Part shown: positions 39,896 to 53,050 of the stretch, in pieces
Numbering within the stretch: the stretch's first letter is position 1
Layout: each line of letters begins with the position of its first letter
NCBI RefSeq assembly: GCF_030848495.1
Contig: NZ_JAVDDT010000001.1
Coordinates: 372,001 to 436,000, forward strand
Direction of reading: 5' to 3'
Source: Natronospira bacteriovora
GTDB lineage: Bacteria > Pseudomonadota > Gammaproteobacteria > Natronospirales > Natronospiraceae
DNA: 64,000 nt
Notes under the pieces: generated by a model
What the model saw: the letters and a program-made list of their open reading frames with translations, nothing else
Database searches by the model: none
What the model was told of the DNA's origin: nothing
Made by a program: the position numbers and the translations under genes

Positions 39896-40660
39896 TCAGG
39901 CTGCGGCCTGACGAGCAGCCACCAGAAACACTTCCTTGAATGTTTGCTCAAGTTCACGCGCTGGAAGCACATCAAAATTGACTACGCGACGGTACGCCAA
40001 TAAGCTTTTCAATGCCTCCCTCGTTATCTCCTCCATTCGTCCCTGGCCAAATTCATCTGCCAGTTCCACCCACGTCTCTGCCAATAGTCGCGCTACCTGG
40101 GGCTCCGCTGAAAGACCGGTCCGGTCCAAAATTTGCACAAACGCATCCTGCGTCAACCTATCGACATATTCCCATCCCGGTGGGCCATCTCCATGGGGCA
40201 ATCCGATCAAATAACCTCGCCGCCACAGTGTTTCAAAAGTGTTCCTCATTCCGCCTACCCAACGTTCACGCGCCCCGAGCGAAAACCGCCACGCAGTCAC
40301 ATCCGGCAGCAGGATGATGCAAAAATACGACCAGATTTCTCTCCGACAGGCCTCTGGGAACGGAATTCTCGCCTCTTCAGCAAGGTATCTGGCACAAGCA
40401 GCATCAAATCGGGTCTTTTGACGATCACCTGCCGGCCCTGGGAATCCATTCTGGCTCGCCAGATCCAGGATCTGCTGTCGTATTCCCTCCAGGCGCGCAG
40501 TTTCCACACGACGTCCTCCAGTGGCAGTCCAGGTTACCGCCTCATGGTGCGCACCTTCATACTCCGGCAGCCTCTGACCTTCATTGCCATATTCCTGAAG
40601 CTGCTCCCACAATTGCTGAGCTGCAAACCCGGTCAAACGCGGGAATAGTTCAATCGCCAT
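39896..40660 (-). CDS. DUF6339-like protein of the Z1/GHKL defence operon
   Basis: A 254-aa soluble protein, last in the operon. It resembles the family annotated DUF6339, which I associate with Z1/GHKL operons; the family name is from memory and not proven here. Visible features are LEGIRQQILDLASQNGFP near residues 57-74, an aromatic middle WSYFCIILLPDVTAWRFSLG near 109-128 and a Trp/Tyr/Gly-rich RRGYLIGLPHGDGPPGWEYV near 147-166. No catalytic motif is clear. The start at 40660 overlaps the stop of the previous gene by 11 bp, so translation is coupled. Confidence 0.75.
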   Translation of the reverse strand: MAIELFPRLTGFAAQQLWEQLQEYGNEGQRLPEYEGAHHEAVTWTATGGRRVETARLEGIRQQILDLASQNGFPGPAGDRQKTRFDAACARYLAEEARIPFPEACRREIWSYFCIILLPDVTAWRFSLGARERWVGGMRNTFETLWRRGYLIGLPHGDGPPGWEYVDRLTQDAFVQILDRTGLSAEPQVARLLAETWVELADEFGQGRMEEITREALKSLLAYRRVVNFDVLPARELEQTFKEVFLVAARQAAA

Positions 40661-41546
40661 GATGCCCACCAAAGGTGGATGACAGAATTGCTCTGAATTT
40701 GGCAGGCGCTCGCTTCCTCATGGCCATGATTTCATCAAGCCCCTCTTCCGGAAACGCCTGATCAAGCCATTGAGATACTGTCCATCCGATGGATTCCTCC
40801 TCGTAATCATCGGATTTTCCGCTGTAGTCATCCCAATCCATGACTTGAGAGATCAGATGGTGAACCAGTTCGTTGGTAAGGCGCTCCAAAATTGCAGTAT
40901 CGGAGTTGTGGATAGCCTCTATAACATCACCCCGGTGACTGTTAAGTCGAACCTGAAAGTGGCCTAGAAAACTCGCGTCCAAGTCTGAAGTTTCGAGATG
41001 AAACATCCACGGCGCCTTGCCTAGGCGCGGATCAACAGCTGTAAAATCCGACGCCTCCATTGGCAAACGCCCACCGCCCCCCTCCAGCTGGCAGACCAAT
41101 CGATCATCCCAGATCCGACTCCCCGGAAACGACGGAGCAAGACGGTTTTTCGGCTCGCCGTCGACCAGGGACACTGACGTCATGAGATCGAGATGACCTT
41201 GAAGCTCCTGCCCAGGAAGCTCGATACTGATCTCCCTTTCCAACACCCCCTGACCGCGACTTATCAGCAATTCCTCTTTCCAGAGGGATCGCCTTATACC
41301 AACATCGCCCGTCGTCAATCCCACTGAAATAACGAACTTTGCTCCATCACGGAGAGCGCATTCTTCCAGCAGATTGTCAGCATGGACATCAAGGTTCCTG
41401 CTGACAACAATATCCGTCGTATAATCCCAATGCGGAATCACACCACCAAGTTCCATGAGTCCTTCGTAACCCCGGTACCGCCATGCTGCTGCTGATATCG
41501 TTCCAGCCAGTGGACGCAGAAATGGATATGCAACCGTTTCACTCAT
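40650..41546 (-). CDS. unknown 298-aa component of the Z1/GHKL defence operon
   Basis: A 298-aa protein I cannot assign. It has a beta-rich N-terminal half (VAYPFLRPLAGTISAAAWRY, DGAKFVISVGLTTGDVGIRR, ISIELPGQELQGHLDLMTSV) and an acidic helical C-terminal third (MDWDDYSGKSDDYEEESIGW). No signal peptide, no membrane segment, no known nuclease motif. The start codon overlaps the GHKL ATPase stop (ATGAGTGA), and the next gene overlaps its own stop. It is therefore an integral part of the module rather than a neighbour. Confidence 0.8.
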   Translation of the reverse strand: MSETVAYPFLRPLAGTISAAAWRYRGYEGLMELGGVIPHWDYTTDIVVSRNLDVHADNLLEECALRDGAKFVISVGLTTGDVGIRRSLWKEELLISRGQGVLEREISIELPGQELQGHLDLMTSVSLVDGEPKNRLAPSFPGSRIWDDRLVCQLEGGGGRLPMEASDFTAVDPRLGKAPWMFHLETSDLDASFLGHFQVRLNSHRGDVIEAIHNSDTAILERLTNELVHHLISQVMDWDDYSGKSDDYEEESIGWTVSQWLDQAFPEEGLDEIMAMRKRAPAKFRAILSSTFGGHHGD

Positions 41547-43380
41547 CCGGCAGCTCCTCGAGCTTCAAACCAGGAGTGATAGCGACATGTGATGGCAAGC
41601 GAATCATCACCTCCCCTTGAACCGTACCGCCTGGAAGCTTTGACCTTATGCCTCTTGACCGGTCTTCCTTCTTTCCTTCTCCCAAGCGCCAGCGGACTAC
41701 TTCTGGCCTTTCGCCCTCGGGGGTTTTCTCCAGCTTCTCTCTGCCTTCCGTCACGATCAGGGGCTGGGCGGTCACCTGCACTTTCCTGCCCGCAGGACCC
41801 GCGATCTCAAATTCAAACCGTGCTACAGGCCGTTCCTCCTCTTCTACAAGCCCTGAAAAAACAATATTCCTCAGCCTTACCTTGCGCTGGCTGCCGGATG
41901 TCCGGCCCGCATCCCTGGATTGGGGAACTGCGCGATCTCCGCTGTTGTGCAGCAAAACTCCACCCACCCGATCTGCGCTTGCCGCAAACCCACCCATCTC
42001 TTCGCTGCGTGGAAGCCTCGTTTCCGGGCTTATTCTCTCCATTTCCTCACGAATTCTCTTGAGAGCCACATTCACATACGTCTTCTTGCGGCTCCCACCA
42101 GGTAGGTGCTGAGGAACCCAGTCGTCGTGAGCTGGAGGCTCTGCTTCTGCAAAAGCCGATTCCACTTCCTCCTCATCACTGCAGATGAACACTCCACCCC
42201 ATTCCATGCGTCTATCTGCCAGCTGATTACCAGTGAGATACTTTACAACCAACTCAGCCGGCCGCATCAAAGCAATGTGATGACAAACCTCCGGAATCTT
42301 GGGCTCGCAGTTTCCTCGCATGAACTGGTACCGCTCCTCTCTGAAGTCTCGCTGGGCGGCCATCCATCCCAGATGCTGCTTCGGTCGCTTCGACCGGATC
42401 CTGACTGCTGGATCGCTTTGAGAACGAGCAATTCGCAACGCATCGGCAAACAGAGAAAATGGTGCTGCTTCATCAACCTCTGGAACGTGAACAGGCTCAC
42501 CCTCACAATGCACCCTGAATTCCATCGGAGTACTAATGCCTTCGCTGCCAACCATTTTCGGCCAGAAATACCACATCAATGCTCTGACCATTCTCTCCGC
42601 GGCTTCCCTAAGGGTCGAAACCTCATCACCGAGATCGGGCTCGATGATCATGATACTCGTACCTGGCATATTCTTCCGGACCGGCATTCCAAGGCCACAG
42701 GCCAGAAACTCTGCATCCTCGCCAATAATTGGATCCACGACACCATCATCTGCTCGGCAACCCCACCAGTGTCTTCCGGTATAGGCTCTTTCACCATCGT
42801 GGAACTCCTCACCAGTCCGCGCAGCCATGAATCTGCGCTCCACCATTCCTTGGTGATTTGTAGCTACGCTGTCTACCACAATGGTTTCACAATTACTGAC
42901 ACTGAATAGCGAAGACTTCCCGTATCCATAAGTGCCACCGGAAAGACTCTGCTCTTCTCTCGGTCCTCCTATATTCCTGAGAAACTTCACAAAACGGGAG
43001 GTTTCCCCCTTGCCAAGGGCCGAAGATCGAGTAGGCCCGTCGAGACCAGTAGTCTGGTAGTCGCAGATGTCAAGAACTGTTATTTCATCCTTGCTGAGAA
43101 TTCTCTTGAGCCGGGATTCTGGATCAGTCGACAGGTCTCTGAAAACCACCTCCTTGAAGAATCTCAATTCCTTCTGGTCAAGCTTTCGAAGATACAGTTC
43201 ATATTTCGGCGTCTGCCCCTTGTTTCGAGCGTCCCAACTGTTCTGTACGCTCTCCCTGATCGCGGTAACAAGCGGATCTGACGACGGCGCGCCAAGAAGT
43301 CGCCGCGCCCCTTGCCCTGAAACGTTGCCAAAATCGCTGTACGGCTCACTTGACCGATCCACCCTAATCATCGCTGACAA
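41539..43380 (-). CDS. GHKL (MORC/MutL-like) ATPase of the defence operon
   Basis: A 613-aa protein with an N-terminal GHKL ATPase. The N-box is AIRESVQNSWDAR near residues 40-52, the G1 box is VLDICDYQTTGLDG near 101-114, and the G2 region is GGTYGYGKSSLFSVSNC near 148-164. The rest (about 250-613) is unassigned and probably includes an S5-like part and beta domains. Such paraMORC ATPases in restriction-modification neighbourhoods were described by Iyer, Abhiman and Aravind (2008). They are thought to remodel DNA or protein complexes with ATP. It overlaps the PD-(D/E)XK gene by 17 bp. Confidence 0.9.
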   Translation of the reverse strand: MSAMIRVDRSSEPYSDFGNVSGQGARRLLGAPSSDPLVTAIRESVQNSWDARNKGQTPKYELYLRKLDQKELRFFKEVVFRDLSTDPESRLKRILSKDEITVLDICDYQTTGLDGPTRSSALGKGETSRFVKFLRNIGGPREEQSLSGGTYGYGKSSLFSVSNCETIVVDSVATNHQGMVERRFMAARTGEEFHDGERAYTGRHWWGCRADDGVVDPIIGEDAEFLACGLGMPVRKNMPGTSIMIIEPDLGDEVSTLREAAERMVRALMWYFWPKMVGSEGISTPMEFRVHCEGEPVHVPEVDEAAPFSLFADALRIARSQSDPAVRIRSKRPKQHLGWMAAQRDFREERYQFMRGNCEPKIPEVCHHIALMRPAELVVKYLTGNQLADRRMEWGGVFICSDEEEVESAFAEAEPPAHDDWVPQHLPGGSRKKTYVNVALKRIREEMERISPETRLPRSEEMGGFAASADRVGGVLLHNSGDRAVPQSRDAGRTSGSQRKVRLRNIVFSGLVEEEERPVARFEFEIAGPAGRKVQVTAQPLIVTEGREKLEKTPEGERPEVVRWRLGEGKKEDRSRGIRSKLPGGTVQGEVMIRLPSHVAITPGLKLEELPDE

Positions 43381-44401
43381 ACCTCGAAAACACCTGATCC
43401 ATGTGTTTCGGCGAAACCTGCCATTGCCTTATGGAAGCGAGTGAAATCGAATATCTCACGTCACCAATTCCGGCAGGCAATTCCCCACCTGTGATCTCTG
43501 TCTTCGTCAACTTCGGGAATCCCTTGCTGACATCAAAACATGTCATGCTTGAGAGCGAAAACCTGTGGTCTTCCCACCGAACAGGTTCTGATGGGTGAAA
43601 TCCTGAAGCATTCAATCTCTCAATAAAGCCTGATTCGTCATCAACGATCCTCTGAATACTCGCTGATAGCATTGGGACGCTGACATTTCCTTTCGGATCC
43701 GGCACCAGGACCAAATGAAACAGGTAAAGGCCCTTTGCCGGCGGATTCAGTTGATCCAGTCCGTGGATCTCAATACGCGATTCTCCTACATGAGCAGATG
43801 CCTTGACCTCGATCGCCTGCTCGCCTGACATGAAGTCATGTGTCTCGCCCAGAGGCCCGTTCCATGCCCTCCATGAACCAGGATCTACCCCGACAAGTTT
43901 CTCCAGCACAAGGAGTTCACCTACCAGACCAATCGCTTCTTCCATGCCCACACGGGAGGGCAGATCCCGCTGAAGAAGGTTGCGAAAATCCTCGAGAGCC
44001 TGCTCGATCGCGCGTCGGCTCGCCAATCCGTTGGAAATGCGCCGAATAACATCCACCGCAAGTTCGGCGAATACAGGCTCGAGAGCCGATTCCTGACAGA
44101 CAAGCTCGATCACAGGCAAGGGACGACCATCAACCAGGGGGCTTCGGACTGTCACTCCGATGTTTCGCCCCCCAAGGTCGCGAGACACCGCTTCCCTGGG
44201 GTCGATCTCCGCAAGAATCGCAGCTTCCCCGTCAAGCCCCAGAGAAATCAGAACGGTGGTATCTGTCTTTGTGTGGAAGGGCTCCGCCACTTCGCGAGTA
44301 TCTTCTCCAACGCCAGTCGATTCCCGTCGCAACTTATCCCACCAGGCCAGTACCTCACCTGGCGAGATCATTGCACTAGGGTCATCCCGATACGAGTTCA
44401 T
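43364..44401 (-). CDS. PD-(D/E)XK motif nuclease of the defence operon (DUF4420-like)
   Basis: A 345-aa protein of the PD-(D/E)XK motif family (DUF4420/PF14390 type). The nuclease core is visible as E162 (GLVGELLVLEKLVG), D189 (ETHDFMSGEQ) and E198-V-K200 (AIEVKASAHVGESRIEIHGL). An N-terminal ~140-residue domain of beta type precedes it. It is the likely DNA-cutting subunit, or one of two with Vsr. The start codon lies one base after the Z1 stop, and its 3' end overlaps the GHKL gene. Confidence 0.9.
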   Translation of the reverse strand: MNSYRDDPSAMISPGEVLAWWDKLRRESTGVGEDTREVAEPFHTKTDTTVLISLGLDGEAAILAEIDPREAVSRDLGGRNIGVTVRSPLVDGRPLPVIELVCQESALEPVFAELAVDVIRRISNGLASRRAIEQALEDFRNLLQRDLPSRVGMEEAIGLVGELLVLEKLVGVDPGSWRAWNGPLGETHDFMSGEQAIEVKASAHVGESRIEIHGLDQLNPPAKGLYLFHLVLVPDPKGNVSVPMLSASIQRIVDDESGFIERLNASGFHPSEPVRWEDHRFSLSSMTCFDVSKGFPKLTKTEITGGELPAGIGDVRYSISLASIRQWQVSPKHMDQVFSRFVSDD

Positions 44402-44402
44402 C

Positions 44403-47027
44403 TCAATCCTCTTCTACTTCCGCATCAATTGCCAAGGCCCGGAGGTCCACCGAAACATAATCCCCGGTTCGACCTTCCGGGAAAACCAGCCCAAGCCCCA
44501 TGACATCCATGACGGCATCAAGCTGCACTCGGTCGCGACCGGAAACCCTGGGCGGGGAGTCCCTACGGATTGGATAAAGCAAAAGCAGAGGTCGGTGATT
44601 TCGGCTCTGAACTTCCTCTCGGTACTTCTTGAATGCCTTCCAGCTCGTCCCTTGTGAAGGAGTGTCTGACACCTTCTTCTGATCTGGCAGATCCACCAGC
44701 ACATCCCTCTTCGACATCAACGCCTTGATATCTACGGCGTCATCAGGCGAATCCTTCATTTTCGCGCGAATGACTGTTCGGACCTTTCCAAGTGGCCCCA
44801 ACGGCAACTCTGATTTTTGGCCGCTTGCTGGGCCTATTACCCCAACATTCCAACGGTCCAAGCCCTTGTCCATGTATTCATCGATGTACTTTCGGATAGC
44901 TGAAGTGTTGGTTCTACGCTGTTCGCTGCTCGTCCGATAGTTTGCAAGAAACTCGAGGATTATTGTTACTGGGAGATCGTGAAAAACATGCCCGCCAGGG
45001 CGCGCCTCATGCTTCGCGCCTTGGTCGGCCGCCGATTCGATCAGCCGTTCAGCAGCATTCCAATTTGATGCCAGCCATTCACGGTTCTTATGGTAGAAGC
45101 GGATAGTCTGTACATGCTCGCCGCCATAGGACAACGCGGCGGTCCGCGCATGCTTCATCGCGGCGCGGCGCGTTACAAGCATCCCTGGAACCTGCCTGAT
45201 TCGAACAGCCCAATCCAGAGGAGTAATCTTGCTCTGTGCATAAACAGAGATATCTTCTCGGATCTCCGCTTCAATCGTGGCAAGCTCGCGAAAATTCGCA
45301 GCCGTCTCTGCCGTCATCCATATTCTAGGAAGATCTTCATACCCGTGCCGATATCCAAACCATCGCCCCATTTGCAGGAGGGTGTCGTATTGCCTCGTGT
45401 TGCGCCCAAAGTAACTGACCAGTAGCCCGGGCAGCGTGACGCCACGCGCCAACCGGTTTCCCCCGACAACAATAGTCCATGCGGGCGGCCCTTCATCCGG
45501 AAACTCGACACGATCGTCACTTACGTAGTTGTCCTCCAAAACCCTGACGCTCCTTGCCACCTCTTCAACACGACTCCAGATGCTATCGATCGATCTCGGC
45601 TCGTGGTCAAACCGGTCAGGTTCCACGCGTTTACTTTCCGTATCGAGAAGCAACGCCATTCTTTGCCTGTTGCCATCCAATCGACCTGACTTCAGGTCAT
45701 GAACAAAGCTCTTCAAGGCATCAGCGATACTGTCATGAGCATCTACCCGAGCGCTGGTATGCACCAGCATGGTGCAGTGAGACTGCCTTCTTTCTTGAAG
45801 GATGGCTGCCGAGACAATGAACCAGAGAACCGCATCCTCCAGCGAGTGCGGAAGAGGCTCGTTGGCTCCTGTCTCACAACGCTCGATCTCCCTGATCCTC
45901 TGCAGTTCATCGCCACTTATGTTTCGGACCATGTCCAGACCGGATTCCTCAGGTGGCGCCTCTTCTGCAGAAGTCATGTCCCGGCCAAACAGGCTTTCCG
46001 GACCGAAATAATCTGGCGGAGTCGGCAGCGAAACGATGAAATCGTCAGGATAGAGCCCTCGAGCGAGGCGCCCCTCTTGACCGGAATCTGCGGGATCACT
46101 GAGCACATTGGCGAAAGGGGTGGCCGTGTAGCCGACATAGGAGAACCTGGAAAATCGCTCGAGAATCTCCCGGATCCGCAGGTTGATCGTACTGGGATCT
46201 GACCCTTGACTCGGCCGGCTCACGTCCGGACTTGCCTGGTCGGTTTCGTCATCGATGATCAGGGCTGGTATCTGCGCTCGTGTTCCTGCAGGGGTATTGT
46301 CGAGGAGTTCACGAAAGCGGCGAAGGATATTCGTATCCTTTTTGATCACAGCAAGGAATGCCGCCTGTCCGGGCATTGAAAGCCATGGTCTGCTGCCTGC
46401 CTGGAAGTCCTGTTCGTCTACAGTCAGAAGCTCCCAGAAATCCTGATTGCCTTGGACAAGGTCAGCTTCGAGGCGGCGTTGAGTCTGAGTACGAAGAGAG
46501 TCAGTCATGCCGGCGAAGACGAGAATGAGCCGGTAGCCCCGATCTACTGCCTTGGCGATCACCGCCGTCATGTTTGCGGTTTTTCCGCTCTGAACATGTC
46601 CGACAACCAGGCCCCGCACGGATGACGAGTCGAGCCCCGGGGGCGACAAACATCCCACGATGGTGTTCGAGTATTCGTCAATGCTCTCGACAGACGCCCT
46701 GGACCAGTTCTTTTCGTTCAGTAGTCGGTCCCGCAGGGAAGGCCATAGCCTGTCGCCTTCCTCGGAGCCGCAGTACCACTGGCGCCTCTGTTCGCACGGC
46801 TTGCGGATCGTGGACCAGTCGACGGTGCGAATTCTGGCTGCACCAGCCATGACCTCATCCGCGATCCGATCCGCCAGAGCCTCGGCTTCGTCTGGATCGA
46901 CGCACAGCAAGTCCTCGACTAACCCCTGAAGGTCCCGCTTCGCGCCGTCGAGCCCCAGACCGCTGGCCAAGCCCTTCCGAAACTCTTTCCGAAATCTCTG
47001 CAATTGCCGGTCAGATAGGCCTTCCAT
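44403..47027 (-). CDS. Z1-domain helicase-like protein of the defence operon
   Basis: An 874-aa Z1 family protein, a superfamily II helicase-like ATPase fold. Walker A is GHVQSGKT (143-150), Walker B-like is ALIIDDETDQ (DDE 259-261), and SF2 motif III-like is GYTATPFANVL (299-309). The C-terminal motifs V and VI are VVGGNRLARGVTLPGLLVS near 520-538 and LLQMGRWFGYR near 550-560. It probably uses ATP to move along or unwind DNA for the operon's nuclease. It is the largest gene of the module and follows vsr by 123 bp. Confidence 0.93.
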   Translation of the reverse strand: MEGLSDRQLQRFRKEFRKGLASGLGLDGAKRDLQGLVEDLLCVDPDEAEALADRIADEVMAGAARIRTVDWSTIRKPCEQRRQWYCGSEEGDRLWPSLRDRLLNEKNWSRASVESIDEYSNTIVGCLSPPGLDSSSVRGLVVGHVQSGKTANMTAVIAKAVDRGYRLILVFAGMTDSLRTQTQRRLEADLVQGNQDFWELLTVDEQDFQAGSRPWLSMPGQAAFLAVIKKDTNILRRFRELLDNTPAGTRAQIPALIIDDETDQASPDVSRPSQGSDPSTINLRIREILERFSRFSYVGYTATPFANVLSDPADSGQEGRLARGLYPDDFIVSLPTPPDYFGPESLFGRDMTSAEEAPPEESGLDMVRNISGDELQRIREIERCETGANEPLPHSLEDAVLWFIVSAAILQERRQSHCTMLVHTSARVDAHDSIADALKSFVHDLKSGRLDGNRQRMALLLDTESKRVEPDRFDHEPRSIDSIWSRVEEVARSVRVLEDNYVSDDRVEFPDEGPPAWTIVVGGNRLARGVTLPGLLVSYFGRNTRQYDTLLQMGRWFGYRHGYEDLPRIWMTAETAANFRELATIEAEIREDISVYAQSKITPLDWAVRIRQVPGMLVTRRAAMKHARTAALSYGGEHVQTIRFYHKNREWLASNWNAAERLIESAADQGAKHEARPGGHVFHDLPVTIILEFLANYRTSSEQRRTNTSAIRKYIDEYMDKGLDRWNVGVIGPASGQKSELPLGPLGKVRTVIRAKMKDSPDDAVDIKALMSKRDVLVDLPDQKKVSDTPSQGTSWKAFKKYREEVQSRNHRPLLLLYPIRRDSPPRVSGRDRVQLDAVMDVMGLGLVFPEGRTGDYVSVDLRALAIDAEVEED

Positions 47028-47149
47028 GGGATCTCCCTAGGCATGTCTTCGGCTGTAAGCCAGAATCGAATGCAATCCGTCCCTTTGCCCAATACTGCCA
47101 CCGGCAGGGCGGCGGTGGGAAGCCTGGTAGCAGAGCCCGTGGTCCCGGC
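47028..47149. other. gap between vsr and the Z1 gene
   Basis: About 120 bp, on the small side for a separate operon. It holds an unremarkable GC-rich stretch. I see no clear terminator or promoter in it, so vsr and the Z1 operon may be one transcript. Confidence 0.4.
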
Positions 47150-47614
47150 TCAGACTCTGGAACGGGGCGGACTCTTAGGAATTTCACATATTCCGGAGCT
47201 TTCTTGCAAGAGCAAGGTGGTCAGCCTGTCCAGCACGGCTTCCGGCTGGTGACGGACCCCGCATTCCCAGACCACCAGAACCCGCCAGTTCAGCGCCAGG
47301 AGCTCCTGCTGGTGACGGTGATCGCGGGCGATGTTCGACGCGAACTTCTCGTCCCAGAACGACTTGCGGCTGGCAGGGGCGGTCGTGTAGTAACAACCGG
47401 CGTGCCGATGCCAGAAGCACCCATGCACGAAGATGACCGTCCGGTACCGCGGCAAAATCAGGTCGGGGGTCCCGGGCAGACGGCGATCGTGCAGCCGGAA
47501 CCGGAAGCCGGACCGATGCAGGGCGCTTCTAATTACCCGCTCCGGCCTGGTATTCTTCCCTCGGATCGCCGCCATCATGCGCGACCGAGTTTCCGGGTCC
47601 ACTATGTCCGTCAT
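47150..47614 (-). CDS. vsr: very short patch repair endonuclease (Vsr)
   Basis: A 154-aa Vsr nuclease. Such enzymes nick next to T:G mismatches that arise when 5-methylcytosine deaminates. The motifs are SRMMAAIRGKNTRPERVIRS near residues 11-30, FRLHDRRLPGTPDLILPRYR near 39-58 with the catalytic Asp, VIFVHGCFWHRHAGCY near 60-75, and LALNWRVLVVWECGV near 106-120. It is divergent from the cytosine methyltransferase at 47680, as expected for repair of that enzyme's deamination products, and is upstream of the Z1 operon. Confidence 0.95.
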   Translation of the reverse strand: MTDIVDPETRSRMMAAIRGKNTRPERVIRSALHRSGFRFRLHDRRLPGTPDLILPRYRTVIFVHGCFWHRHAGCYYTTAPASRKSFWDEKFASNIARDHRHQQELLALNWRVLVVWECGVRHQPEAVLDRLTTLLLQESSGICEIPKSPPRSRV

Positions 47615-47679
47615 TTCGTTCTGTCCTGCCTTGTTTGCGGGGCGCTCGTGTCAGATTAGCAGGGAGAGCACACGTAATA
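47615..47679. promoter_or_regulatory. divergent vsr/methyltransferase intergenic region
   Basis: Only 65 bp separate the vsr and methyltransferase start codons, so both promoters must be packed here or inside the genes. It has no obvious -10 box or operator repeat. A shared regulator or the methyltransferase itself could control it. Confidence 0.45.
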
Positions 47680-49239
47680 ATGAATAAAATCAAGGTTGTA
47701 GATATATTCGCAGGTCCCGGGGGACTTGGAGAGGGTTTTGCAAGCTTCTCCCCTCCCGGCACCGGCGGGGAGCGCCCATTCCAGATCGCATGCTCAGCCG
47801 AAAAGGACCCCGCAGCAGTCCGGACCTTGCGCCTTCGCACCTTCTATCGCCTCTGCCGGGAAGCCGGCGACATTCCGGAATCCTACTACGAATACCTGCG
47901 CGACCCGGCATGCCCCCCGTACGACATGCATACAGAGCATCTCTGGGAGGAGGCCGACCAAGAAACCAGGCCGCTGGAACTGGGGACATCGGCCGGCACT
48001 AAACGGCTGCGCGAAATGCTTGAGAGCAAGCTGGGCCGTGACGACCAGTGGGTCCTGATAGGCGGCCCTCCCTGCCAGGCATACAGCCTGGTCGGACGAT
48101 CCAGGAACAGGGGAAACAAAGGGTATCGACCGGAAAAGGACAAGCGCCATTTCCTCTACCGCCAGTATCTGAAAATACTGGCCGAATTCCGACCCGCCGC
48201 CTTCGTCATGGAGAATGTCAAGGGAATCCTCTCCTCCCGGGTCGGTAACGAACTGATTTTCCCCCAAATACTGAAGGATCTGAGCGAACCCAACGGCCAA
48301 CAAGGCGCCAGAAATCCAGTCCGGTATCGAATCCATTCACTTGTGACGGATGAGGCCTATTTTCCGGGCGACGACCCGGATGGGATTGATGCAAACAATT
48401 TCATCGTTCGTACTGAAGACTATGGCATACCGCAGGCTCGTCATCGGGTCATTCTGATCGGCATCCGTGACGACGGCGTCCAGACTCCGAAACCACGCAT
48501 ACTGAGAAGAGCATCTCAACCGGTCCCAGTTGAATGGGCTATACGCTCCCTTCCCGACGTCCGGAGCGGCTTGAGCAAAGGCGACAACGGCAGTCAAAAG
48601 TGGCTTGACGCAATACAAGATGCCATCCGACAGGCCTCCCGATCCGGCCTTTCAGTGACCGACGCCCGCCGAATGCGATCCGCACTTTCCAGAGCATGCC
48701 ACCTAGCTCACAACTGGGATCGAGGCGGGCGATTCATACGCCAATATCGGATTCCGCTCGGCCGAACGCCTGGCGAAAAGCGACTCCTGAGGCAACTCCA
48801 GTCCTTCGCACTCGAGGGAACCGCCAATCATCAGTCGCGTGGACACATGCCCATGGACCTTGCTCGCTATCTATTCGCGTCTACCTTTGCCGAGGACCAT
48901 GGCCGATCACCGCGCTCATCCGAATTCCCGAAATCCCTTGCACCTGACCACAAGAATTGGACCTCAGGCTACTTCGCAGACCGGTTTCGAGTTCAGGTTA
49001 CTGGCCAGCCAGGAAATACCGTAACCAGCCACATCTCAAAGGACGGTCATTACTATATCCACCCCGACCCTACACAATGCCGAAGTTTAACTGTCCGCGA
49101 GGCCGCACGAATTCAAACATTTCCTGATGATTACTTCTTTGAAGGCAATAGAACTGAGCAATACATACAAACCGGAAATGCTGTCCCCCCGCTTTTGGCA
49201 AAAAAGATCGCAAATATAGTCTACAAATCCATTACTTGA
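47680..49239 (+). CDS. DNA (cytosine-5) methyltransferase
   Basis: A 519-aa C5-methyltransferase, longer than most stand-alone ones (about 330-420 aa). Motif I is DIFAGPGGLGEGF near residues 8-20. The catalytic PCQ is GGPPCQAYSLVGR near 128-140, ENV is MENVKGIL near 176-183, and QxRxR is PQARHRVILIGIR near 251-263. The long variable region to about 430 should carry the recognition domain, and the late motifs are TVTSHISKDGHYY and SLTVREAARIQTFPDDYFF. The target site is not predictable. The start at 47680 lies about 65 bp from vsr, so the two share a divergent promoter region. Confidence 0.95.
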   Translation: MNKIKVVDIFAGPGGLGEGFASFSPPGTGGERPFQIACSAEKDPAAVRTLRLRTFYRLCREAGDIPESYYEYLRDPACPPYDMHTEHLWEEADQETRPLELGTSAGTKRLREMLESKLGRDDQWVLIGGPPCQAYSLVGRSRNRGNKGYRPEKDKRHFLYRQYLKILAEFRPAAFVMENVKGILSSRVGNELIFPQILKDLSEPNGQQGARNPVRYRIHSLVTDEAYFPGDDPDGIDANNFIVRTEDYGIPQARHRVILIGIRDDGVQTPKPRILRRASQPVPVEWAIRSLPDVRSGLSKGDNGSQKWLDAIQDAIRQASRSGLSVTDARRMRSALSRACHLAHNWDRGGRFIRQYRIPLGRTPGEKRLLRQLQSFALEGTANHQSRGHMPMDLARYLFASTFAEDHGRSPRSSEFPKSLAPDHKNWTSGYFADRFRVQVTGQPGNTVTSHISKDGHYYIHPDPTQCRSLTVREAARIQTFPDDYFFEGNRTEQYIQTGNAVPPLLAKKIANIVYKSIT

Positions 49240-49325: not shown

Positions 49326-49394
49326 AGCACACCCGCAGCACGGACAAACTGTAGCGCAGCAGCAATTTTGTCCCAGTGCCTTCGCTTTTTAGGC
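49326..49394 (-). repeat. attC-like site 1 (degenerate, array end)
   Basis: Read on the minus strand it runs GCCTAAA, then GGCACTGGGACAAAATT, a GCTGCTGCGCTACAG middle, the partner TTGTCCGTGCTGCGG and GTGTGC. The arms pair around an AGC/CGC-type loop, as in integron attC sites. The outer cores are altered (AAA for AAC, GTG for GTT), so it may no longer recombine. It overlaps the stop codon of the HNH gene. No other features were seen in 49240-49325. Confidence 0.75.
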
Positions 49395-50201
49395 TTCTTT
49401 AACCTGAAGCTTCTGTTTTATTTCCGGATATTCCAGCCCCTCTTTCTTCATGTAAATATGTACCGCTCTATGGCAGTTTGGACAAAGCAACGCAAAATCA
49501 TCCCGCCCTACAACGTAAGAAGAAGAGTAGGTAGATATAGGCACCTTATGGTGCGCCTCTATGTACTCGACGCCATACTGCTCGAAAAAATTCATATGAC
49601 AAATATCGCAAACCGAGGCGGATCTAGCTTTAAGAGCCTTTACGACCTCTTGGTTGCGCTCAGCCATCAGGTGAGTAACGTACCTTCTTCCACCCTCTTG
49701 ATAAAGCACTTCTTCCTGCGGTGGAGCTTGTTCTGGCGCGAAACCAGATCCGCGCTGCAGTACAACGTACCCTCTCTCAATTTCAGAGACTGAAAAAGTG
49801 CCTTCATAAACCCAAGAGTCACCACTCTCTGTGAATAGCATAACAGGATACTTATACTGAGGTTGATTAATTAGTGCCGCGTTCGCCTTTTCCGAATGCG
49901 ACACTTTGCCGCTGCGGGCCTTGAACGAGTAGTGAAAAGCTGTCTTGTTTTTGCCTGCCCACCCATCCTCTTCATAAGCACCTGGCCGCGTCTTGATGAT
50001 TACTCCATGACATGCGGGTGGCTCGCCAATCCAATTAACCCCCTGCTGCGGCGTATTCCTTATTTGAACCTCTTCACCTCCCCAGTACTGAGAGTCAACG
50101 ACCTTGGAGTACTGAATCAGGTCGAAGAGATTGCGCTTAGGGACCACATCTCCCGCGGCGAGCGAAAACAACTCTTGTGGCCTCGCCAAATTCACATTCA
50201 T
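49389..50201 (-). CDS. HNH endonuclease, cassette gene 4
   Basis: A 270-aa protein with a C-terminal HNH nuclease of McrA type: VCDICHMNFFEQYG near residues 202-215, EYIEAHHKVP near 218-227 (His pair) and FALLCPNCHRAVH near 241-253. The two CxxC pairs bind zinc. The N-terminal ~190 residues are unassigned, with WIGEPPACHGVIIKTRPGAY and FHYSFKARSGKVSHSE, and could sense modified DNA or act in targeting. GGGAGAGG supports the start at 50201. By content it is a plausible anti-phage nuclease in an integron cassette. Confidence 0.88.
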   Translation of the reverse strand: MNVNLARPQELFSLAAGDVVPKRNLFDLIQYSKVVDSQYWGGEEVQIRNTPQQGVNWIGEPPACHGVIIKTRPGAYEEDGWAGKNKTAFHYSFKARSGKVSHSEKANAALINQPQYKYPVMLFTESGDSWVYEGTFSVSEIERGYVVLQRGSGFAPEQAPPQEEVLYQEGGRRYVTHLMAERNQEVVKALKARSASVCDICHMNFFEQYGVEYIEAHHKVPISTYSSSYVVGRDDFALLCPNCHRAVHIYMKKEGLEYPEIKQKLQVKEA

Positions 50202-50217
50202 ACCCTCTCCCATGTAA

Positions 50218-50284
50218 CTTAACGCATTCCTCACCGCTAAATCAGGAGCGTAGCGAGTAATTTACGTGCAGCAAATTGTTATGA
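50218..50284 (-). repeat. attC-like site 2
   Basis: Minus strand CATAACAATTTGCTGCACGT, then AAATTACTCGCTACGCTCCT, GATTTAGCGGTGAGGAATG and GCGTTAAG. It is bounded by TAAC and GTTA cores. It is the least symmetrical of the four sites, but overlaps the stop codon of the gene at 50279 exactly as the others do. Confidence 0.65.
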
Positions 50285-51127
50285 TCCGACGCCGGTAATG
50301 TGCAATTTATGGACAACTACCCCTCCGAACGGGCTCACTGCTTCTTCTACGAGGCAGTACAACGTCACTTGCGGCTTGAGCAACGTATAAATGTATTCTA
50401 CGTTATCCTGGTTTCCGAAAATGGTGAAACTATACTCACCAAGTGGTATCGCCTGCCCAGCATCAGAGACGGACAGCTTCCCAGCATTCTTGTATTTGTT
50501 AAAATCAAATACTTCACACTTAAGCTCCGTCGTTTCTTTCTGTATTTTTGTCGGAATGTCAAAAGCGTCCCGATCGGCCTCACCAAGGTAAATATCATGT
50601 TTTGAGCTGAACCGTTTACCAGCAGACACTTCTGTTAATTTTCTATTACCCAGCAAGTGTGCCAAATCTTGGTAATTTGGAAGTGCGAGTTGAGCGATTT
50701 GGAATACGGGGCCATGATAGTGATGATGTTCATCGCCAATTCTAAGATCGACATCGCCATTGTTGTTGAACTCATAGGTAGGCTGATTTCCGCTACGTAC
50801 CGCACCACAAACAAGTTTCAACATAGAGAAAGTGTCTTTGGTTAAATCCCATATGTTTTGCGGACCAAGGCTTGACACGAGCGGTAGCCCTAGCTGGACG
50901 CCTTGCAAAGCAATCTCAAAATACGTTAGCAAAGAACCGTGCTTGAACTCAGTCGCCTTTATGTAAAATTTTTCTCTTTCGGATGCGGTTATACGGCTTT
51001 TTTCGGCGGTAACAAGATAGGTTTTGTCGACAATGCTTTGAAAGCTACTCAAAGCAGATATCGCTACGGGAAGCGGAACTCCCCCCTTCAGAATAGGGCC
51101 ATCAATTTTAAATTGTAGTTCTTCCAA
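50279..51127 (-). CDS. hypothetical protein, cassette gene 3
   Basis: A 282-aa soluble protein I do not recognise. It starts MEELQFKIDGPILKGGVPL and carries a basic Tyr/Lys-rich N-terminal half, a middle NNNGDVDLRIGDEHHHYHGP, and a late beta region (LGEYSFTIFGNQDNVEYIYT). AT-rich codons contrast with the surrounding chromosome. It ends inside attC-like site 2, and its start is just inside site 3. The function is unknown. Confidence 0.75.
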   Translation of the reverse strand: MEELQFKIDGPILKGGVPLPVAISALSSFQSIVDKTYLVTAEKSRITASEREKFYIKATEFKHGSLLTYFEIALQGVQLGLPLVSSLGPQNIWDLTKDTFSMLKLVCGAVRSGNQPTYEFNNNGDVDLRIGDEHHHYHGPVFQIAQLALPNYQDLAHLLGNRKLTEVSAGKRFSSKHDIYLGEADRDAFDIPTKIQKETTELKCEVFDFNKYKNAGKLSVSDAGQAIPLGEYSFTIFGNQDNVEYIYTLLKPQVTLYCLVEEAVSPFGGVVVHKLHITGVGS

Positions 51128-51155
51128 CGGTTACTCCCTATCTGATTCTAGTGCC

Positions 51156-51238
51156 CATAACGCCCGCAGCACGCACGGCTTTGTAGTGGAGGCGCAGCCG
51201 GAACGAAAAAGCCGTCGCTGTGCCTGCGATTGTTACAG
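51156..51238 (-). repeat. attC-like site 3
   Basis: Minus strand TGTAACAATCGCAGGCACAG, CGACGGCTTTTTCGTTCCGG, CTGCGCCTCCACTACAAAGC, CGTGCGTGCTGCGGGCGTTA. GGCACAGCGACGGCTTT pairs with AAAGCCGTGCGTGCTGCG. The outer cores are TAAC and GTTA. It shares long stretches (GCCTGCGATTGTTA, AACGCCCGCAGCACG on the plus strand) with site 4. Confidence 0.88.
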
Positions 51239-51967
51239 GGCGCTGCCCGATAGCTCATATTTCTTTGTTCCAAGGTCAGAATCTGAAAGATGAAGAAAAT
51301 AGCCAATATAGCCTAGGTATCTCCTTACCTCTACTCCAATCTTTCCTATTGTATAAAGCCTGGCGAGCGCTCTCGCAAACCTTTCAAGTCGAGAAACAAC
51401 TTCATTATTAATTTCTATATGGACTCGATTGCTTGCAGGGTTATTTGTAATTTCATCCATTAGGTCTTTGCGAGCCAAAAGTATCTCAGTCTCAAGCCGT
51501 TGCCACGCAGCGTCCGGATCATCCGTTTGCACATTCCGGCCAACGACCACATCCAAATTGTAGTACCGCGCCGCTTGCCCAAAGTCGCTAAGCACAGAAA
51601 TAAATGACAGAAGCTCCTTTGAATTTAGGTATTCGACGTCTGCCTTTGCTACAGGGATATTGTCTACGTAATCATCTAAAAAGCATTCAGCACGAACTCT
51701 TTCGAGCAGGCATTTGAGGTCATGTCCGTTTCGCCCGGATGGTAAAGCTTTGCTGGTCGGAAAACTGCCATGCACCTCAAGCCAACGGAAGCATAACGTA
51801 ACCTTCATGAACCGCTCGAACCCACTTGCCAAAGTTAATAGCGGTAGGTGATAGAAGTCATTGCCCGCATTGAGCGTCTGAAGCTGCCCAAGACCTGCTT
51901 TGATAAGCCTCACCGCATTAAAAAGCTCTTGGTCTAAGGCTAGTGTTTTTTGAAGCTCCGTGGTCAT
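51233..51967 (-). CDS. hypothetical protein, cassette gene 2
   Basis: A 244-aa helical soluble protein I do not recognise. It starts MTTELQKTLALDQELFNAVR and has LKCLLERVRAECFLDDYVDN and NEVVSRLERFARALARLYTI. No catalytic motif is visible. It ends inside attC-like site 3, and the site-4 core is just upstream of its start. It is an AT-rich cassette gene of unknown function. Confidence 0.72.
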   Translation of the reverse strand: MTTELQKTLALDQELFNAVRLIKAGLGQLQTLNAGNDFYHLPLLTLASGFERFMKVTLCFRWLEVHGSFPTSKALPSGRNGHDLKCLLERVRAECFLDDYVDNIPVAKADVEYLNSKELLSFISVLSDFGQAARYYNLDVVVGRNVQTDDPDAAWQRLETEILLARKDLMDEITNNPASNRVHIEINNEVVSRLERFARALARLYTIGKIGVEVRRYLGYIGYFLHLSDSDLGTKKYELSGSAL

Positions 51968-51978
51968 GATCTAGCCCT

Positions 51979-52048
51979 GTAACGCCCGCAGCACGGGCAA
52001 AATTGAAGCGCAGCGAAAATTTTGTCCCTGTGCCTGCGATTGTTAGGT
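51979..52048 (-). repeat. attC-like site 4
   Basis: Minus strand ACCTAAC, CGCAGGCACAGGGACAAAAT, TTTCGCTGCGCTTCAATTTT, GCCCGTGCTGCGGGCGTTAC. The arms AGGCACAGGGACAAAATTTT and AATTTTGCCCGTGCTGC pair with extra-helical bases, and AGCGCAGCG forms the loop. The outer ACCTAAC fits the attC RYYYAAC core; GTTACAG fits GTTRRRY only loosely. It is the clearest site of the four. Confidence 0.9.
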
Positions 52049-52054
52049 ATTTAA

Positions 52055-52705
52055 TCAATACGCCTGCCTGGGATTTCCAATCATCCACAGCACCTTATCT
52101 ATGATCCTGATGTCGTACGGGTAGGTCACGCCGTATTTGTTTCGAAGATTGTTCAGGAGTTCGCGATGGACGGACAACAGTTGGTGGACCATGGCGTAAT
52201 AGTTCATGTAATGCCGAACTGCTAGCGCGATATCTGCCTCACTGCCTATCCGCGGTGCTGCTCCGATTCTCGGAAAGTCCGCAAGATCATTATCTAAACA
52301 TTGCATAACCACCAGTGCACGATGTACGAAAGCGTCATAGATAACAGCCGTCTGTGGATAGAGACACCAAAGGAGTTTTGAACTCGCCGACACCCAACTT
52401 CGTGGTACTTGCCGATGAAGAGCAGTAAGAAGCTCTGTGAATAGCGCCTCAATATCAGCGGCAGACGGTTGGCGACCGGTTCGCTCATGCTGCCGCGCAA
52501 AGTGCAGGAACTGTTTCACGACTGCATTTCTGTTCTGCGTCGTGATGCCTTGGAAAAGCCCGTAGTCTCTCATCCATGTGCGAACAAGGTCTGCGTCCTG
52601 CGGTCCACTCGTGAGCATCACGACCATCTCTTGGTCACGGTAAATCGCCTCCTGCATTACAGAAGCAGTCGTGTATTTATTTTCAAGATATCGTCGAAAA
52701 CTCAT
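52055..52705 (-). CDS. hypothetical protein, cassette gene 1
   Basis: A 216-aa helical protein starting MSFRRYLENKYTTASVMQEA. Visible parts are FLHFARQHERTGRQPSAADI and VMQCLDNDLADFPRIGAAPR. I do not recognise a family. A TAAC/GTTAGG core lies 7 bp before its start (52712-52717), which marks the right edge of the cassette array. Its stop precedes attC-like site 4. Confidence 0.72.
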   Translation of the reverse strand: MSFRRYLENKYTTASVMQEAIYRDQEMVVMLTSGPQDADLVRTWMRDYGLFQGITTQNRNAVVKQFLHFARQHERTGRQPSAADIEALFTELLTALHRQVPRSWVSASSKLLWCLYPQTAVIYDAFVHRALVVMQCLDNDLADFPRIGAAPRIGSEADIALAVRHYMNYYAMVHQLLSVHRELLNNLRNKYGVTYPYDIRIIDKVLWMIGNPRQAY

Positions 52706-53050
52706 ACCAGTCCTAACAGTTGATTATACGGCTCGCGGTGTATCCCATATTATCGGGACTGCAGTATAAGCCGGTGGGCATGGGAGCGCGGATTTGCTTA
52801 TTTTTCTCGTAGAAACATAAAGTTGGGAAAATCTGCGGATTCGCCGGACGGTGTTATATTGCACGGCGCTTTTTTTTGCGATTTCGATAATGTCCCGGCA
52901 CGCCAACCGTGTGGCGAGATAGCTAGGTGATTGGATTGGGGGCTGGTTCATGGCGGCCTCGTCCCTGGCTATGGATTTCAGCTTAGCCTACTCTGTGCTT
53001 ATGTCCAATCCCGCGTTGGCGTTTCGAGCCAGCTTGCAGGATGCGCATTC
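52706..53050. other. 345-bp region between the cassette array and korB
   Basis: It starts with the array-edge core (52712-52717). It contains an AT-rich stretch 52795-52885 that could hold a promoter for the array or the flanking operon. An open frame at 52724-52951 on the minus strand has no ribosome binding site or family match, and I do not accept it. There is no integrase gene or attI-like landmark that I can identify. Confidence 0.5.

Follow-up and report, generated by a model that had tools for sequence, protein, structure and literature searches.

Integron-type cassette arrays that lack an adjacent integrase gene are usually taken for debris, and the locus described here raises the question of whether such an array is an inert leftover or a part of an integron whose integrase is encoded elsewhere. 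The window, meaning the whole 64,000-base stretch that was analysed, corresponds to bases 372001-436000 of contig C1 (581,901 bases) in a genome of 3.0 Mb and 15 contigs (G000). G001 and G002 denote congeners, and L numbers denote extracted loci (L174 in C4, L161 in C9). Four open reading frames on the minus strand, each ending at a hairpin site as described in the earlier note, were found in the array: cassette 1 (52055-52705, 216 aa), cassette 2 (51233-51967, 244 aa), cassette 3 (50279-51127, 282 aa) and cassette 4 (49389-50234). The GC content of this stretch is 0.46-0.50 vs about 0.60 in the surroundings, bearing out the AT-richness that had been noted.

The cassette 4 product is an McrA-type HNH nuclease, matching PF01844 (E = 1e-5), a PADLOC type IV enzyme model and PDB 6ghc_A (E = 2e-6, covering the HNH part). 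It is the single identified cargo of the window array, and no informative match was obtained for cassettes 1-3. The cassette 1 protein had no match in Pfam, NCBIfam, PADLOC or PHROG, the cassette 2 protein has weak plasmid relatives annotated as hypothetical, and the cassette 3 protein matches phrog_33593 (E = 9e-23), a PHROG itself of unknown function. Relatives of cassettes 1 and 4 were not found among the viral contigs searched, nor relatives of cassettes 1 and 3 among the plasmids searched. An Rfam scan over the array region gave no relevant match, and single-sequence structure predictions for cassettes 1 and 4 were of low confidence (mean pLDDT 46 and 33) and were set aside. The defence operon reported next door corresponds to a restriction-modification/defence cluster outside the array, adjoining its far (left) end at 40650-49239, with MzaC-, MzaD- and Vsr-like genes, cytosine-methylase genes and an ATPase-like gene matching PADLOC PDC-M33A.

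A covariance model was built from seven attC sites in arrays on contigs C7 and C9 and in G002, with the classical pairing (R box, spacer and L box with unpaired bases) set by hand (R2); the window sites were left out because circularity was to be avoided. When the 64 kb were searched on both strands, the four reported sites were the four top-ranked matches of this independent model, the fifth scoring 9.3 bits. Site 4, the attC of cassette 1 (51980-52045, minus strand, as are all four; 64.7 bits, E = 2e-16), and site 3, that of cassette 2 (51158-51235; 46.4 bits, E = 5e-11), are intact and have identical arms, in agreement with the long identical stretches seen earlier. Site 2, the attC of cassette 3 (50220-50281; 27.2 bits, E = 2e-5), is damaged with both cores kept, and its length falls 4 bp short of that of a close relative in the C4 array (L174 14229-14294, 85% identical). 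Site 1, the attC of cassette 4 (49331-49387; 14.4 bits, E = 0.14), is decayed and aligns to model positions 5-69 only. The outer TAAC/GTTA cores claimed for every site are thus present at sites 2, 3 and 4, but both are lost at site 1. Similarly, folding better than shuffled sequence (DNA parameters) holds for sites 3 and 4 (z about -4) but not for sites 1 and 2 (z -0.4 and +0.2). A folding-energy scan for attC proved too permissive, with many false matches in the window, and was excluded from the evidence. The stretch is a genuine four-gene integron cassette array, in which attC quality drops with distance from the right edge.

The motif CCTAAC at that right edge had been read as a half-site core. 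The core is real, but it forms only the last bases of a complete 62-bp attI with a leader (attI at 52714-52775, minus strand; core GTTAGG at 52712-52717, with the cassettes following). An attI model made from 11 sites, none from the window, gave a single match in the window (34.2 bits, E = 1.7e-9), and a weight matrix made from 4 sites, again none from the window, scored 42.6 at 52714 vs 1.7 at the next unrelated place. The window attI ends CCGTATAATCAACTGTTAGG on the minus strand and the C7 attI ends CGTACAATCAACTGTTAG; the 15-bp core pattern TANAATCARCTGTTR is matched at exactly four places in the genome (C1 window, C4, C7 and C9), and its reversed control at none. Leader and attI together span 323 bp (52714-53036, minus strand) and are homologous to the leader of the intI-less C4 array, with a local alignment score of 161 vs a shuffle maximum of 40; without attI the leader still scores 93 against 40. 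In both the window and C4 an unrelated gene flanks the leader, which starts directly behind that gene's stop codon, and a further upstream box is common to the leaders of the window, C4, the C7 copy at 43.9 kb (C7-43k) and G002-C3. Because the right-edge core ends a complete attI inside a homologous leader, the window element is an attI-headed array without an integrase: attI lies at the 5' end of the array, as in an integron platform, and the cassettes all share one orientation. Few copies have diverged as far as the window attI, which shows 67% identity to the intI-linked C7 attI and 79% to that of C4.

Two features of the leaders were observed in addition. One cassette-direction frame is open through attI in 11 of the 11 copies listed from G000, G001 and G002 (window 52714-52775, L009, L161, L174, L190, L191, L145, L184, L148, L149 and L183), which are homologous and do not represent eleven independent cases. 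The core TGTTA(A/G) supplies the stop codon of this frame, so that coupling of a leader ORF to the first cassette is conceivable; a frameshift seems to interrupt the longer leader frame in the window. A box of the form TA.GCTAA..C..AGCCAAGGA.CAGGCC is also common to the intI-less leaders; in several of them CGCCATG comes next, an arrangement reminiscent of a promoter -10 element, ribosome site and start codon. The box was seen in the window (about 52960-53010), L174, L191, L190, L149, L183 and L195.

An intact intI gene was found on contig C7 (205978-206907; TIGR02249, 395 bits with a cut-off of 265), the sole above-cut-off match in the genome. It adjoins a LexA-type (SOS-type) box CTGTATGGATATACAG, its own attI and a series of at least five cassettes, which is cut off by the end of the contig. 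A family search and a leader scan revealed no integrase adjoining the window array, as had been stated from the letters, and a search of the window leader for remnants found no intI trace; the leaders of C4, C7-43k and others showed none either. With no integron integrase nearby, and with three attC sites at E <= 2e-5 plus a fourth that has decayed, the array can be classed as a CALIN, and it lacks the intI adjacent to attI that marks a complete integron. The earlier note's description of a CALIN or a remnant of a larger chromosomal integron thus fits the usual bookkeeping, and remnant is near the truth, but it missed the attI head and the distant intI. A complete integron split by the assembly was also considered and rejected, since some 157 kb separate the window array from the closer end of its contig.

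The window attI is one of several. The attI model identified six copies in G000 (C1 window, C4, C7 at 20.5, 43.9 and 207 kb, and C9), four in G001 and four in G002 (one of them cut short), and these genomes hold one, two and one intI genes, respectively. Besides the window, G000 thus has four more intI-less attI copies, and attC sites follow most of the copies counted across the three genomes. In 17 of 17 pairs, which are not independent of each other, attI is more alike than the preceding 100 bp (e.g. 97% vs 74%). Selection for recognition could account for this pattern, as could recent copying of attI alone. At C9, similarity of the flank to the G001 C48 integron extends to the intI 3' end and resumes near the intI 5' end; most of intI is missing and a short scrap is left, marking an intI deletion scar. 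Elsewhere, locus L195 (G002:C1:1509968-1510006), which matches the C7 integron flank, retains the leader and the 5' half of attI without intI.

The other arrays of G000 also carry cargo of note, including an AbiC-like protein and an Mrr-type nuclease. One cassette of the C4 array (L174 15937-18122) holds two genes, for an EcoRI-type methylase and a GmrSD/HNH protein, and judged from sequence is apparently a complete restriction-modification module. A cassette on C9 (L161 31-813) encodes a class D beta-lactamase (NF012161, 292 bits with a cut-off of 250), an 83% identical copy of which lies on contig C14. The remark that cassettes often carry anti-phage genes is therefore fair for part of them, given the HNH nuclease here and the defence-type cargo of other arrays, but the remaining window cassettes are uninformative. 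Six G000 contigs (C1, C4, C7, C9, C10 and C14) end in or near attC arrays, which probably caused these assembly breaks; the cassette count is consequently a lower bound.

A comparison between species is informative for one of the intI-less copies. The attI at 20.5 kb on C7 (C7-20k) has an orthologue on contig C60 of G001, and the two match at 94-95% identity across flank and leader as far as the final base of the attI core (3535 / 5742). Past the core, the cassettes of the two are unrelated, and attC is present in both. The intI-linked pair C7/C80 shows the same identity break at the attI core. Since both species lack intI at this site and share the leader, the simplest reading is that the cassettes were exchanged by an integrase encoded elsewhere, acting in trans. 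A homologous replacement that happened to stop precisely at the core could also explain this, though with lower probability.

Several intI-less attI copies per genome were found in three lineages, the genus of the window, Vreelandella utahensis and Pseudomonas. In V. utahensis DSM 3051, the 2.68-Mb contig that holds the integron attI has three further copies of it, none accompanied by intI and all followed by attC sites. Pseudomonas alcaliphila, P. mendocina FFL34 and Pseudomonas sp. P818 have leader-attI copies on other contigs, and five of those examined have no nearby intI. Next to several of the Pseudomonas copies few attC sites, if any, were detected with the attC model used here, so for these it is attI and leader that are demonstrated. 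In P. alcaliphila a second intI adjoins attI (L210 5203-6179, G058:C22) and was matched in two pieces meeting near residue 78; it is probably frameshifted, with decay in progress.

We consider it probable that the window locus is a satellite platform of the chromosomal integron, comprising attI, leader and four cassettes, with the integrase supplied in trans. The single intact C7 integrase would recognise the window attI and act in trans on it and on the four other intI-less attI copies, so that the window cassettes would have been captured without a local intI; the cassette turnover at C7-20k/C60 lends this indirect support. The leader would have been copied to dispersed sites, by a mode of copying that we infer, and newer cassettes would be inserted at attI, which fits the gradient from intact to decayed attC away from it. 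Counting against this reading are the divergence of the window attI, the damage to two of the four attC sites and the lack of an orthologous array.

That the window array itself is still served by the integrase is what we infer, and the main rival is that a second integron at this place lost its intI by deletion, leaving attI and cassettes inert and decaying. We regard this as unlikely, though it deserves serious weight: attC sites 1 and 2 are decayed, the window attI is diverged, and C9 provides an example of just such an intI deletion. Against it, two attC sites remain intact, as does the attI core, the window leader holds no intI remnant, and an orthologous intI-less attI elsewhere has changed its cassettes. 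Much less credible is a chromosomal rearrangement that split the window array off an intI-linked one. In its favour, synteny with G002 holds on the POR side of the array but not on the left (the corresponding G002 locus lacks an array, and no orthologue of the window array was found), and many contigs end inside arrays. Against it, the C7 intI comes with an attI, leader and cassettes of its own and a flank conserved in G001, and six attI copies for one intI cannot arise from a single split. A further rival, in which the distant integrase would have placed the cassettes at a secondary site (attG) present by chance, is an origin proposed for CALINs (PMC8618304) and one for which an integrase is present in the genome. 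It was rejected as extremely improbable, for the array is headed not by a chance core but by a full attI in a 323-bp homologous leader, which is unexpected at such a site.

If attI is kept at such arrays and served in trans, as in the satellite platform proposed for the window, a genome would have several cassette insertion ports, each beside different chromosomal genes, and working platforms would be counted as remnants in surveys that take no account of attI. The open question of how CALINs arise would also become directly testable, by looking for attI at their heads. Whether many CALINs of Gammaproteobacteria are attI-headed satellites, with one integrase serving several dispersed docking sites kept recognisable by selection and the integron being a genome-wide multi-port system, is in our view an evenly balanced proposition. 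A literature search covering few subscription journals, with older Pseudomonas integron work outside its range, found no account of multi-copy attI-headed satellite arrays, and a narrower one on plural or orphan attI found none.

Among known systems, CALINs resemble the window array in being attC arrays without an adjacent intI. Off-target insertion, intI loss and rearrangement have been proposed as their origins (PMC8618304, PMC12444791, PMC9024848), and their mobilisation in trans is described and accepted (PMC12444791). The window array differs in being headed by attI and a leader; IntegronFinder seeks attI for class 1 only (PMC9024848), so the attI heads of CALIN-like arrays go unseen outside that class. 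The sedentary chromosomal integron offers a second comparison: the same types of attI and attC, SOS-type box and cassette arrangement are found at the intI-linked C7 locus, but such integrons usually have one attI beside intI (PMC3607928), whereas here several attI lie far from it. The integron remnant of Treponema phagedenis, with attC at a locus syntenic to the integrons of its relatives and intI lost, is also alike, but the account of it mentions no integrase elsewhere and includes no analysis of attI (PMC3607928). Finally, in the delta-attI-type cassettes of mobile integrons (PMC12901181), attI likewise lies outside its usual single place and is still a substrate of IntI1; there attI replaces attC within a cassette, whereas here it heads separate chromosomal arrays.
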